From Burkholderiales bacterium (GTDB lineage: Bacteria > Pseudomonadota > Gammaproteobacteria > Burkholderiales > SG8-39), in NCBI GenBank assembly GCA_014860355.1, contig JACZJV010000044.1, positions 1 to 40,855 on the forward strand: a stretch of 40,855 nt of DNA, in the 5' to 3' direction. The translations under genes were made by a program, and so were the position numbers. The notes beneath the pieces are model-generated. The model searched no databases, had not been told where the DNA came from, and was given only the letters and a program-made list of their open reading frames with translations. Below, one piece after another: positions 2,825 to 35,831 of this stretch (positions are counted from its first letter, which is position 1; each line of letters starts with the position of its first letter).

Positions 2825-2904
2825 CCGAGAGGCAGGCCACGGTCCGGGCGTACTGCTACGCCGCGCGGTGTTGCTGCTAAAGTATCGCGTAACCAAGGCC
2901 GCCC

Positions 2905-4155
2905 ATGCCGAAACTGCGGCCGAACCTGATGGGGAAAGGCACTTGCATGGCCGAGGGCGAACCCGACAGCCGACTCTACGGGCACGCTGACCCGCTCGAC
3001 GACCTAAACCGCAGCGTGGCGCTCGAGCGCAAGCTCGCTTCGATCCACGAGGCCCTGTATGTGCAGATCGAGTGCGTGGACCGGATCTCGGTCGTCGCCT
3101 ATGATCCGGCCACCGATTTGCTGAAGACCTTCCTCGCCAGTTCACCCGGGTGCAACCACCTGGTGCGCTATGAGGCGCGCCTCGCCGAGTCGCCTTCCCT
3201 CGCGCAGATCCTGCGGGCCGGCCGTCCACGCGTGGTCAATGACCTCGAACTCTTCCGCCAGGGGCGCCATCTGCACACCAGGGTCATTGCGGAGGAGGGA
3301 TACCGCTGGAGCTACACGGTCCCGATGTATCTCGACGGCACGTTCTGGGGCTTCATATTCTTCAACTCGCGCAGCCCGGGCGCGCTGGCCGAACCTGCGC
3401 TACGCACGCTCGACGTCTACGCCCACCTGATCTCGGCCGTCGTCACCGCGGAAATGCTCGCGGTGCGCATACTCGCTGCCGCGGTCAAGACGGCGCACGA
3501 CATGGTGCACTTCCGCGATCCGGAAACGGGCGGCCACATCGACCGCATGGCACGCTATGCGCGCGTGATCGCCCAGCACCTCGCGGCGACCGGTGCCGCA
3601 AATCTGGATGACGCCGCTATCGAGCGCATCTTCGAGTTTGCTCCCCTGCACGATATCGGCAAGCTCGCACTGCCCGACCGCATCCTGCTCAAGCCTTCGC
3701 GGCTCTCGGAGGCAGAGCGCGAGGAAATGAAAACGCACACCGTGCGTGGCCTGGAGATGATCGATGCGATCGCCCACAATTTCGGGCTGGAGCACCTGGA
3801 CGGACTGGACCTGTTGCGCCACATTGCCGAATCGCATCACGAAACCATGGACGGAGGCGGTTATCCCCACGGCCTGCACGGCGGGGAGATACCTCTGGAG
3901 GCGCGCATCGTTGCCGTCGCGGACGTGTTCGATGCCCTTACCAGCCCGCGCCCCTACAAGCCTTCGTGGACCGACGATGAGGCTTTCGCCTGGCTGCGCA
4001 AGCTCGCGCGCTCGAAGTTCGACGAGGACTGCGTCGACGCGCTGCTGTACAACATGAAGAAGGTGAAGCAGATCCAGGCGGAGTTCCAGGACCCGGTTGA
4101 GGATACGGTGCCTGCTGGCGCAGCCGGGACGGGCGGGGAAGGCGCAGGACAATAG
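2905..4155 (+). CDS. GAF domain / HD-GYP c-di-GMP phosphodiesterase
   Basis: Up to 416 residues. The N-terminal half (about 30-180) resembles a GAF sensor domain. The C-terminal half is an HD-GYP domain with H-D-I-G-K at about 249-253, the later H-H-E at about 312, and the GYP signature G-G-Y-P-H-G-L-H-G at about 317, followed by ARIVAVADVFDALTSPRPYK. HD-GYP enzymes hydrolyse c-di-GMP to GMP at a di- or tri-iron site. All metal ligands appear present, so it is probably active, with the GAF domain sensing a small ligand. Start is uncertain: the ATG at 2947 is preceded by GGGGAAAGG (2931-2939) and may be the true one, giving 402 residues. The domain has no membrane segment. Confidence 0.85.
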   Translation: MPKLRPNLMGKGTCMAEGEPDSRLYGHADPLDDLNRSVALERKLASIHEALYVQIECVDRISVVAYDPATDLLKTFLASSPGCNHLVRYEARLAESPSLAQILRAGRPRVVNDLELFRQGRHLHTRVIAEEGYRWSYTVPMYLDGTFWGFIFFNSRSPGALAEPALRTLDVYAHLISAVVTAEMLAVRILAAAVKTAHDMVHFRDPETGGHIDRMARYARVIAQHLAATGAANLDDAAIERIFEFAPLHDIGKLALPDRILLKPSRLSEAEREEMKTHTVRGLEMIDAIAHNFGLEHLDGLDLLRHIAESHHETMDGGGYPHGLHGGEIPLEARIVAVADVFDALTSPRPYKPSWTDDEAFAWLRKLARSKFDEDCVDALLYNMKKVKQIQAEFQDPVEDTVPAGAAGTGGEGAGQ

Positions 4156-7894: not shown

Positions 7895-7931
7895 CGCGGC
7901 AGCGGAGCAACCGGGCCGGGGCGCCATGGCC

Positions 7932-7961
7932 AAAAAAAACCCCGGGACCGGGCCCGGGGTT
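7932..7961 (-). terminator. Rho-independent terminator of the phasin transcript
   Basis: On the minus strand AACCCCGGG pairs perfectly with CCCGGGGTT (7961-7953 with 7946-7938, loop of 6), followed by T8 (7939-7932). Strength should be high. It stops transcription coming from phaP about 200 nt after the stop codon, just before the hsp20-lon promoter. Confidence 0.85.
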
Positions 7962-8024
7962 CAGGGTGCCCCGAGGTTGCCCTCGGGGCCGCTGACAACA
8001 AAGGAGGAGGAGAAGTTGTCAGCG
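7932..8024 (-). ncRNA. candidate 3'-UTR-derived small RNA with anti-Shine-Dalgarno loop
   Basis: Downstream of the phasin gene, minus-strand RNA folds into three hairpins in close succession. (A) A perfect 10-bp stem, 8024-8015 with 7999-7990, has a 15-nt loop reading UUCUCCUCCUCCUUU, an exact complement of strong Shine-Dalgarno sequences. (B) A perfect 9-bp stem, 7989-7981 with 7976-7968, is closed by a GCAA (GNRA) tetraloop and directly abuts A. (C) The terminator hairpin 7961-7938 ends in eight U. A seed loop, a stable middle stem and a Rho-independent terminator is the usual layout of a trans-acting bacterial sRNA, and CCUCC loops are known in anti-SD sRNA families. I see no promoter right upstream, so it is most likely released from the phasin mRNA or made from its promoter. 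Confidence 0.5.
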
Positions 8025-8104
8025 TTTTCTTGAAGAAAGCTTTGGGAAGCTCTAAGCAGACCTGCATGCCAAGGTGAGCTTCCTGTTACACGGGGAATCT
8101 GCAA

Positions 8105-8119
8105 GGGGGCATCGCCCCC
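8105..8119. other. short GC hairpin just after the phasin stop codon
   Basis: GGGGGC and GCCCCC form a 6-bp stem with a 3-nt loop 17 nt past the phasin stop codon. There is no T-run, so it is not a terminator by itself. It could protect the coding part of the phasin mRNA if the 3' region is cut off as a small RNA (inference). The 343-nt interval 7793-8135 holds no protein gene. Confidence 0.35.
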
Positions 8120-8135
8120 CTGGTACAGTCCAAGC

Positions 8136-8678
8136 TTAAGCAGCTTTCTTTTTGCCGGCTTGTTTCACCACATTTGCGGTGGCGGCAGTAACGTTGGCTT
8201 CGGCCAGGTCGGTCGCTTGCTTGACCACTTTGGTGAAGCTGTCGTAGGCGGAATTGGCGGCTGCCATGGCGGATTTGACCGCGGCGACGGCCACGTCCGA
8301 TCCGGCGGGCGCGTTCTTGGTCAGTTTGTCCATCAGCGACACAACCGACTTGTTCATTTCGGCAGCCTGCGATTCGGCCAGCTTGGTGACTTCGGCCTGG
8401 GTCTGGGTCGCCACTTCGTACACATTGCGCGAATATGCAATCGCTTTTTCCAGGGCGGGCTGGGCCGAGGTGGCGCCCAGATTGACGAGTTCTTGCGCGT
8501 CCTTGACCGACATCAGCGCTTTGGCCTGGCCTACGCTCTCTTCAAACGCCGTCTTGGTGGTGTTGAAGTTCAGGGCGGACAAGCGCTCGAACGCGGCGAA
8601 TTGGGCTTGGGCAATAGAAAACAGCGCATCAACGCTGGCTTTGTTGGCAGCAGCAAATTGTTCAGGGGTAGCGTACAT
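8136..8678 (-). CDS. phaP: phasin (PHA granule-associated protein)
   Basis: 180 residues from MYATPEQFAAANKASVDAL (8678), preceded by TTGGAG; the upstream in-frame ATG has no ribosome site. The sequence is a classic phasin: F-A-A-x-N-K-A-S-V-D-A-L near the N-terminus, long amphipathic helices with few charged turns, LNFNTTKTAFEES, and a basic alanine-lysine tail ending KQAGKKKAA that favours granule or nucleoid contact. Phasins coat polyhydroxyalkanoate granules and control their size. The gene is monocistronic, with its own consensus-like promoter, a palindromic operator beside the transcription start and a strong terminator. The family call is firm. PHA synthesis genes are not in the window. 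Confidence 0.93.
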   Translation of the reverse strand: MYATPEQFAAANKASVDALFSIAQAQFAAFERLSALNFNTTKTAFEESVGQAKALMSVKDAQELVNLGATSAQPALEKAIAYSRNVYEVATQTQAEVTKLAESQAAEMNKSVVSLMDKLTKNAPAGSDVAVAAVKSAMAAANSAYDSFTKVVKQATDLAEANVTAATANVVKQAGKKKAA

Positions 8679-8750: not shown

Positions 8751-8761
8751 TTGCACTGCAA
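8751..8761. promoter_or_regulatory. palindromic TTGCA-N-TGCAA site at the phaP start, candidate PhaR operator
   Basis: TTGCA, one base, TGCAA forms a perfect inverted repeat at about +2 to +12 of the predicted phaP transcript. A related TTGCAC half-site occurs at 8834-8839, upstream of the -35. TGC/GCA-rich repeats near phasin promoters are the known targets of the PHA-responsive repressor PhaR. No phaR gene is in the window, so the binding protein is inferred. Confidence 0.4.
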
Positions 8762-8769
8762 CAATTTAG

Positions 8770-8797
8770 ATTCTACTCTCAACTCGTTGCCTGTCAA
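8770..8797 (-). promoter_or_regulatory. phaP promoter
   Basis: Minus strand: -35 TTGACA (8797-8792, perfect), 16-nt spacer, -10 TAGAAT (8775-8770, 5 of 6). The start of transcription would be near 8763, giving an ~85-nt leader to the phasin ATG. The strip from 8760 to 8940 is markedly AT-richer than its surroundings. The remainder of the 559-nt interval 8679-9237 (8950-9237) shows nothing I can name. Confidence 0.7.
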
Positions 8798-15194: not shown

Positions 15195-15623
15195 ATGGGA
15201 ATTCTCGACAAGCTGTTTGGCGGCAACAAGGACTACCCGCCACTGCCTGAAGATAACGAGGCACAAGCCCAACTCGGCGAGCTAAGAGCGCTGCTCGAAG
15301 ACTTGGCCCGCCGCGCCCCCGACCGCCTTGAAGTTGTGCCAGCGGAACACGAGGCCTTCGTTTTTCTCGGCAAACCACCCAGGAGCTTCGGCATCGCATG
15401 GATCCACGATGGCAAAGTGAGCAGTCTCAAAGAGCTGGCGGAGGAGAACAAGCTGTCGCAAATCCAGGTCGGCAAACTGATCGGCAAACTGGGCCTAGCC
15501 TATGAGCACGCCAGCCAAACACCGCGTTTCTCAACAGAGGTGTGTGGAAAACAGGCGGTGGTCACGCCCTCCAAAGGTCCGGTGCAGGAGGTTCGTCAGA
15601 TCATCGAGGGGGCAATACGCTAA
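15195..15623 (+). CDS. conserved hypothetical protein, function unknown
   Basis: 142 residues from MGILDKLFGGNKDYPPLPED (15195), behind a very strong ribosome site AGGAGGAG (15181-15188). A longer frame from 15144 is possible but lacks one. It has no signal peptide or membrane helix. The N-terminus (D-K-L-F-G-G) recalls soluble envelope-associated or regulatory proteins. The middle has an acidic helix (about 20-40), a strand pair (EAFVFLGKPP, GIAWIHDGK), then a helical L-S-Q-I-Q-V-G-K-L-I-G-K-L stretch that could be a winged-helix-like element. I do not recognise the family. Its Shine-Dalgarno is exactly complementary over nine bases to the loop of the small RNA candidate near 8000. Confidence 0.6.
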   Translation: MGILDKLFGGNKDYPPLPEDNEAQAQLGELRALLEDLARRAPDRLEVVPAEHEAFVFLGKPPRSFGIAWIHDGKVSSLKELAEENKLSQIQVGKLIGKLGLAYEHASQTPRFSTEVCGKQAVVTPSKGPVQEVRQIIEGAIR

Positions 15624-34538: not shown

Positions 34539-35831
34539 TCAGCCGAACATGTCGTCGATGATGTTTTGATACCAGCTTTCGGCGTAGGAAGCCTCCAGGC
34601 TGAAGTGGCCGTCCTTGGGCGTCAAACCTCCGGCGCCCTTCACCTCTGCGATCTTGCCATCCGTGTAAGTGTACACCCCGGCGACGGAGAGACCGTGGTC
34701 GGGTGTAACCAGGCTGTAGCAGGTATTGACCCATGAAGGCACATCCGGTGACCTGCCGTTCAGCAAGGCGACAATGGCCGCAGCGCAGACCTTGGCCTCG
34801 GAGTTTGCGGCATAGCCCGACTTGGGTATGGGTGCCTGAATGGCAGCATCGCCGATCACGTGGATGCCCTTGTGCACCTTGGATTCCCAGGTGAGAGGGT
34901 CCACCGGGCACCAGCCCGAGGCGTCGGTGAGACCGGCGACTGCGGCGATATGCCCCGCCTTCTGAGCGGGTATCACATTCAGCACATCCGCCTTGACTTC
35001 GCCGAATTCGGTGACGACCGTGCGGCTTTCGGCCTTGATCGCGCGCGCCATGCCGTCATTGGCCTTGGACCGCCATTCGATCATGCTGTTGGCTGTACCG
35101 TAGCCGTAATGCGTAGTCCAGCCCGCGACGAACAAGCCCTGTTTGGAGAATGCGTCCTTCGCATCCATAATCAGAACCTTGGATCTTGGCTTGTGCTTCT
35201 TGAAATAGTTGGCGACGAGGCTGGCGCGTTCATAGGGGCCCGGCGGGCATCGGAACGGATTCGGTGGAGCGGCAATGACGAACAAGCCTCCATTCCGCAT
35301 GGACTCCAGCTGCTTGCGTAGCAGCGCCGTCTGCGGACCGGCGTGCCAGGCGTGAGGCACCGATTCGGCAACGGCTTCCCCGTAACCGTCAATGGTGTCA
35401 TAGCGGAAGTCCACGCCCGGAGACACCACGCAGCGATCGTATTTGATGCTCTGTCCGCCCCTGGTCTTGACCACTTTGGCGACCGGGTCGATGCTCACCG
35501 CCGTGTCGTGGACCACGTTGATGCCGTGCTTCTTCGACCAGCCGGCATATCCATGGGTGATCCAATTCTGCTCCTTGATTCCGCCGATGACCCAGTTGCT
35601 CATGAAACAGGTGGCGAACTCGGTCTTGGGCTCCACCACGGTCACCTTGACGCCCGAGTCCAAATGGCGGATGTACTTTGCGCAGGTCGCACCACCCGCA
35701 CCGCCGCCAATGATGACCACGTGACCGCTGCCCGGCTTGGAACCGGCGCTTGTGCAGCCTACCAAGCCAAGACCGGAGAGCGCTCCCGCCGCGCCCACGG
35801 CCTTGATAAAGCGTCGTCTGTTCATTGTCAT
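34539..35831 (-). CDS. fccB: flavocytochrome c sulfide dehydrogenase, flavoprotein subunit
   Basis: 430 residues behind GGGGAGGAG. The N-terminus is a twin-arginine signal (N-R-R-R-F-I-K, residues 4-10) with a hydrophobic stretch, ending in L-V-G-C (23-26), which also fits a lipobox. FAD binding is V-V-I-I-G-G-G-A-G-G (about 38-47). The cysteine that carries covalent FAD in Allochromatium FccB aligns with Cys75 in T-C-F-M-S-N. The redox-active disulfide cysteines are seen in N-P-F-R-C-P-P-G and in N-T-C-Y-S-L-V. FccB oxidises sulfide in the periplasm and passes electrons to FccA. The gene starts 12 nt after fccA. Confidence 0.93.
   Translation of the reverse strand: MTMNRRRFIKAVGAAGALSGLGLVGCTSAGSKPGSGHVVIIGGGAGGATCAKYIRHLDSGVKVTVVEPKTEFATCFMSNWVIGGIKEQNWITHGYAGWSKKHGINVVHDTAVSIDPVAKVVKTRGGQSIKYDRCVVSPGVDFRYDTIDGYGEAVAESVPHAWHAGPQTALLRKQLESMRNGGLFVIAAPPNPFRCPPGPYERASLVANYFKKHKPRSKVLIMDAKDAFSKQGLFVAGWTTHYGYGTANSMIEWRSKANDGMARAIKAESRTVVTEFGEVKADVLNVIPAQKAGHIAAVAGLTDASGWCPVDPLTWESKVHKGIHVIGDAAIQAPIPKSGYAANSEAKVCAAAIVALLNGRSPDVPSWVNTCYSLVTPDHGLSVAGVYTYTDGKIAEVKGAGGLTPKDGHFSLEASYAESWYQNIIDDMFG

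Follow-up and report, generated by a model that had tools for sequence, protein, structure and literature searches.

The mRNA of phaP, a phasin gene on the minus strand of the 40,855-nucleotide stretch of DNA analysed here (the window), ends in a hairpin displaying the anti-Shine-Dalgarno (anti-SD) sequence of 16S rRNA in copy, followed by a terminator. Anti-SD small RNAs are common, and PhaR is a PHB-sensing repressor of phasins. The phaP tail probably belongs to a group of anti-SD RNAs, some of which PhaR would control, that would mask Shine-Dalgarno (SD) sites when PHB accumulates.

The phaP tail and its counterparts after other phasin genes

An initial annotation, made from the letters of the window, described three hairpins and a run of eight U on the minus strand after phaP (7932-8024). 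Folding bears this out, as the minus strand of 7920-8040 has a minimum free energy of -63 kcal/mol where its shuffles average -41.6 (sd 3.9; z -5.55), none of 200 shuffles being as low. The first hairpin has a perfect stem of 10 bp and a loop of 15 nt, UUCUCCUCCUCCUUU, and an Rfam scan of the window gave no family at its cut-off. The spacer that separates the phaP stop codon from the element is an insertion relative to close relatives and has GCTT at either end. A promoter scan of the spacer revealed nothing sigma-70-like, which speaks against a promoter of its own there for a tail RNA; any small RNA derived from phaP would thus require processing. The features are collected in Table 1, in which R1 is a covariance model built on the hairpin.

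Table 1. Features of the phaP region of the window, and the free-standing hairpin copy elsewhere in the source genome
Feature	Position	Strand	Basis or remark
phaP, phasin gene	8136..8678	(-)	PF09361, E 3e-26
Anti-SD hairpin (hairpin 1)	7990..8024, loop 8000-8014	(-)	fold; model R1, 46.3 bits; six-row covariation
Middle hairpin (hairpin 2), 9 bp, GCAA tetraloop	7968..7989	(-)	fold
Intrinsic terminator: hairpin 3 (7962-7937) and U8 tail (7939-7932)	7932..7962	(-)	fold
Spacer, about 95 nt, phaP stop to element	8041..8135	(-)	absent from close relatives L004-L012
phaP promoter-like TTGACA-16-TAGAAT	8770..8797	(-)	promoter scan
PhaR-operator-like TGCACTGCAACA, near-palindrome	8752..8763	(+)	just downstream of phaP -10 box; published consensus (PMC12849132, PMC6201568, each in partial text)
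Free-standing intergenic copy (L133), source genome	C48:60991-61025	(-)	exact loop match

Phasin relatives came from two sets. In the first, 60 genomes were searched, 51 had a match and 51 loci were read (L002-L052); the second comprised the best 80 of 361 matches in a named genome collection, from which L090 and L100 were dropped since the available DNA held no stop codon. The resulting 129 phasin loci reduce to 103 distinct downstream regions. CUCCUCC or CCUCCU occurs within 150 nt past the stop codon at 45 of the 103, against 7.5% of dinucleotide shuffles, a count that includes L030, which looks like chance, and excludes the copy after the second phasin of the source genome (L002), which has CTCCTTCCTCC; for the labels of the phasin tree the former was dropped and the latter added. 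On that tree, made by a quick method and with many weak branches, the motif trait changes 10 times versus 33.7 for shuffled labels, and the motif is retained in 35 of the 43 rows of one phasin clade. It is lacking from the other 58 loci, among them one entire phasin clade (33/33) and all three Accumulibacter loci read. Sulfurisoma sediminicola (L119), a cultured species, has a CUCCUCC stretch in the tail of its phaP. Under a stricter rule, which asks for a hairpin with 7 or more contiguous bp and CUCCUCC or CCUCCUC in its loop, 22 of the 103 phasin genes are followed by such a hairpin, and the corresponding figures are a mean of 0.17 and a maximum of 2 for 100 shuffles, 0/103 for the opposite strand and 2/2760 for flank windows. 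Outside the genus the strict hairpin follows 13 of 88 phasin regions.

Within the genus the stems and the loop are kept in all 10 close phaP loci read (L003-L012), as expected of an element whose stem is conserved and whose loop does not drift freely. Among five further phasin loci read in the genus, a hairpin with a CU-rich loop is present in L002 and L052 and lacking in L033, L046 and L051. At L033, the second phasin of genome G012, the loop motif has been lost: a similar stem region lies downstream with its CU-rich loop replaced, perhaps a decayed copy. The copy at L002 gives the source genome a second phasin with the hairpin behind it, though model R1 scores it at only 19.6 bits (E 0.1) and it is not among the whole-genome R1 matches.

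In other genera the sequences of the stems differ and yet pair, as in CGCTGACAAC/GTTGTCAGCG, GCGTTCGCGG/CCGCGGGCGT, CCCACAG/CTGTGGG and CTGCCTG/CAGGCAG. Six rows that align without gaps show changes on both sides at 10/10 stem pairs, with 95% of cells paired and at most 55% in slid controls. The rows were selected as hairpins aligning gap-free at equal length (one loop is shorter by one base) which by itself raises the share of paired cells to some extent; more weight falls on the changes on both sides. Alignments A2, A3, A5, A6, A7 and A8 were left out of the counts for misplaced gaps, for being fitted to the model or as unneeded. As judged from the alignments, the CU-rich loop motif has been kept, in loops of varying length, while the stem was rebuilt in different sequence, which supports the earlier reading of the element as an RNA of the phasin 3′ region: its anti-SD loop is constrained and its stems covary.

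The three hairpins do not hold together as one conserved unit, as they had been taken to do. The middle hairpin is present in the genus; among the copies of the loop type read from elsewhere none showed it, and in these the terminator directly follows hairpin 1. Phasin tails of Rhodocyclales are arranged differently again, the CUCCUCC stretch being just 5′ of a hairpin, not inside its loop, with a different hairpin between the CU stretch and the terminator. At another phasin locus, L022, two glycine riboswitch aptamers (RF00504) score over the cut-off at 2880-3101 (+).

Free-standing copies and their relation to known RNA families

The hairpin is not confined to phasin tails. The free-standing copy in the source genome has a 9-bp stem, the loop UCCUCCUCCUCCUUU and a terminator with U8 (z -5.48). 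A strict promoter scan gave no site for it; a candidate TTGCAT-17-TAGTAT fits 7 of 12 consensus bases, and the conserved block upstream ends in a TGTTGTANTATT-like stretch that might, weakly, be read as a -10 region. Model R1 recovers this copy from 13 of the 14 genomes of the genus, each time with a score of 34.3 bits, and finds further copies too. In the source genome as a whole there are just two clear matches, the window copy and the free-standing one, and two weak ones (contigs C7 and C41; E 0.9 and 1.2), so that terminators of this genome do not commonly carry such a hairpin. Across the whole family, 39 genomes out of 98 have an R1 match at E up to 0.02, as do 14 genera out of 26, the matches having been inspected in part; among the weak ones, L155 and L156 are CU-rich sequence with no U-tailed terminator. 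One locus (L151, G024:C424, 693-870 (-)) has a tandem array of three anti-SD hairpins at a spacing of about 70 nt. Four others (L167, L168, L169 and L170) have another type of hairpin, with a CCGCC/GGCGG stem, UCUCCUCCUCCU in the loop and no PhaR-type site within 150 nt, and one of them, L168, scores 26.1 with RF02278, below the cut-off.

The initial annotation compared the element with anti-hemB and CcsR RNAs. RF02837 (anti-hemB) and RF02791 (CcsR1) do have a CU-rich anti-SD stretch and a terminator as here, but the window is below the cut-off of both, 49.5 for RF02837 (best sub-threshold scores 30.4 for L104 and 25.2 for L002) and 65.3 for RF02791 (21.2 bits for the free-standing copy), and the closer known kind is RF02278. 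Members of alpha-r8 (RF00519), which comprises MmgR of Sinorhizobium and SisA-D of Caulobacter, the latter being sibling copies, also have an anti-SD motif as here. According to the accessible parts of the reports, MmgR limits PHB and its promoter is bound by PhaR/AniA. The family is alphaproteobacterial and free-standing, and MmgR is Hfq-dependent. RF00519 has no match in the window, the free-standing copy or L002, and the relative L021 reaches 27.1 against a cut-off of 41. RF02344 (alpha-r14), likewise an alphaproteobacterial family, gives the free-standing copy its best sub-threshold Rfam score (31.6 bits, E 0.007; 21.9 for L002 and 36.6 for L015; cut-off 58.8). With all of these scores under the cut-offs, membership in anti-hemB, CcsR1, mmgR or alpha-r14 is ruled out.

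RF02278, Betaproteobacteria toxic small RNA, includes the double-hairpin RNAs ncS03, ncS05, ncS27 and ncS62 of Burkholderia cenocepacia. In the available text of one report, expression as a discrete sRNA is described for Burkholderia, overexpression of ncS27 slows growth and interactions are predicted to be at ribosome binding sites (PMC5688073). RF02278 RNAs are also reported in Herbaspirillum seropedicae SmR1 (PMC7011215). Shared with the present element are the CU-rich anti-SD stretch in the first hairpin, the shortness of the RNA, a terminator as second hairpin and several copies per genome. The order of anti-SD hairpin first and terminator second is that of the free-standing copy; the window has the middle hairpin in addition. 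RF02278 differs from the element in having a second CU stretch before the hairpin, and it is not described as a phasin mRNA tail in those parts of the literature that were searched. Membership is ruled out by score, as there is no match in the window at the gathering score (50 bits) and none to the free-standing copy or L002 up to E 5. The search does work, since a true member is found in the source genome at C120:9718-9782 (60.6 bits), and it carries the operator core discussed below. When 16 phasin loci were scanned, seven tails (those of G054 and G056, four from Rhodocyclales and one from another proteobacterium) scored 30-38 bits against the cut-off of 50, which hints at a possible common descent with RF02278.

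PhaR-type operator sequences

The operator of PhaR has been deduced as YTKNTGCRNYGCANMAR for Ralstonia eutropha (PMC12849132, accessible text) and given as TGCRNYGCASMA in Bradyrhizobium, where one site overlaps a -35 box (PMC6201568, accessible text). The site at the window phaP fits only the shorter operator core. Phasin promoters were inspected at 32 of the 103 loci, and TGCN3GCA is present in 32/32, its strict form in 31/32. Five of these loci have no hairpin-type element and have the operator as well, so at phaP it marks phasins, not the hairpin.

By the sequence TGCRNYGCANMA, the PhaR regulon would take in the window phaP and 16 of 17 free-standing copies of one stem type, that with GCGGGG, where the operator sequence is 33-34 nt upstream. 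In the 13 free-standing orthologues TGC and GCA are the same throughout, and the three bases between them vary. Twelve R1 matches found independently of phasins (L149, three in L151, L167-L170, L172, L193, L195 and L199) have other stem types and no strict operator within 150 nt.

The source genome (5.09 Mb) has a phaR gene (PF07879, E 1e-30) and 17 TKNTGCRNYGCANMA sites versus 5 for the reversed control. One is at the free-standing copy, one at the second phasin and two are between phaR and the third phasin; the remaining 13 are at genes with no evident link to PHB, or are unread. In flanking DNA the operator core occurs 9 times in 212,046 nt. At the third phasin (G000:C193:9057-9955, L186-L188) phaR is divergent from the phasin gene, with the two PhaR-type sites in between.

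The operator also accompanies a large share of RF02278 members. Members over the cut-off occur in 48 of 120 genomes of the order, with 71 copies in all. A PhaR-type operator is within 150 nt of 31 of the 62 copies examined, the reversed motif within that distance of 0/62, and shuffles give a mean of 0.6 and a maximum of 3; from the density of the operator in the rest of 30 of those loci, 0.006 per copy would be expected. Of the remaining nine copies over the cut-off two have the operator, and in a set of 40 RF02278 matches from 40 relatives it is within 140 nt of 18. On secondary replicons of Burkholderia, Paraburkholderia and Caballeronia, 8 of the 31 matching records were read (L318-L325); all eight copies are RF02278 by the cut-off, and the operator is at 0/8. 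The PhaR link therefore depends on the lineage, and B. cenocepacia is not included in the claim. A PhaR operator as a universal feature of these RNAs is ruled out by the twelve operator-free hairpin copies, and also by half of the RF02278 copies and by all eight on secondary replicons.

In most of the secondary-replicon copies the RNA is immediately preceded by a GGGTTTATACT-like stretch. Another motif, TATTAGANAAT, often followed by TCTAATA (for example in L253, L286, L296 and L299), is upstream of 12 of the 31 operator-free RF02278 copies versus 0 of the 31 with the operator, and this suggests that a second regulator may act on the former.

A tie between the tail and PHA state, as initially proposed, thus gains indirect support from the PhaR-type operators that accompany phaP and one free-standing type of this hairpin. 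Precedent comes from Sinorhizobium, where, in the accessible parts of the reports, PhaR shifts the mmgR promoter and the first loop of MmgR has a predicted anti-SD motif. As this alphaproteobacterial PhaR-MmgR link uses a different RNA, the design may have arisen twice. In the available text of a 2017 study the regulator of sRNA accumulation is stated as unknown (PMC5688073), and an upstream motif common to three of the double-hairpin RNAs is mentioned (its Figure S3). The word PhaR or PHB is absent from the main text of PMC5688073 and of PMC4603805. No description of an anti-SD RNA in a phasin 3′-UTR, or of PhaR control of RF02278, was found in what is accessible of the open-licence PMC literature, a scope outside which lie the main NcS27 paper (doi 10.1099/mic.0.000848) and Figure S3 of PMC5688073, either of which could hold part of it.

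Candidate targets, alternatives and a proposed PHB-responsive mechanism

Pairing of the loop with SD sites was calculated for 43 mechanical ORFs of the window, with the best of several starts taken for each. The initial annotation had singled out the gene at 15195 for its nine-base match, AGGAGGAGA, before the ATG. The match is real (-16.4 kcal/mol; the gene has no Pfam match), but this gene is not supported as a special target, as the strongest pairing in the window is with the gene starting at 35825 (-), at -20.3 kcal/mol, which encodes flavocytochrome c sulfide dehydrogenase (34539-35831 (-)). SD complementarity is unspecific, and these window genes can be regarded as candidate targets only.

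The SD of phaP itself, GGAGA, is complementary to UCUCC in the loop, and the copies found through phasins are directly after the gene, as would suit a cis element by which phasin synthesis or mRNA stability is subject to feedback. The pairing is weak, however, at -7.6 kcal/mol and rank 17 of 43, and the hairpin also stands free between genes in nearly all genomes of the genus, so that a purely cis role is unlikely. About equally unlikely is that an RNA-binding protein or chaperone attaches to the CU-rich loop and so protects phaP mRNA or localises it, SD pairing being incidental. A conserved loop by itself does not separate RNA from protein partners, and phaP mRNA should, from general knowledge, be abundant in PHB-rich cells; the conserved portion is nevertheless the core anti-SD sequence CUCCUCC, in several registers. 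Less probable still is a sponge, the phaP tail titrating another GGAGG-bearing RNA rather than mRNAs, an idea for which there is a parallel in the RNA sponge that acts on the anti-SD sRNA system in Caulobacter (PMC12559287, accessible text). That the element arose by chance, or by mere drift of CU repeats near a terminator, is very improbable despite loops of CUC repeats that are able to expand, given the opposite-strand, shuffle and flank controls, the both-side stem changes and the retention of the motif in most of one phasin clade.

The preferred reading, that the tail belongs to a set of anti-SD RNAs acting on other mRNAs, would work as follows. On accumulation of PHB, PhaR would leave the DNA and both phaP and the free-standing RNA would be transcribed. 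An RNA of about 95 nt would be released from the tail of the phaP mRNA, or the tail may act while attached. Its loop would pair with GGAGG-type SD sites of other mRNAs and so lower their translation, with phaP itself largely spared by its weak SD match.

A bolder and more tentative extension is that the phasin mRNA is bifunctional and, with its free-standing sister RNA and many RF02278 RNAs, makes up a PHB-responsive translational programme, in which granule growth removes PhaR from DNA and the anti-SD RNAs so released lower many mRNAs at once. On this view PhaR could be the regulator so far missing for a large part of the Betaproteobacteria toxic small RNAs, in those lineages whose copies bear the operator. 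From sequence, PhaR is proposed as a regulator for part of the betaproteobacterial anti-SD sRNAs, with PHB as the signal. With a regulatory RNA in the mRNA of a storage-granule protein, carbon storage would be tied to translation.
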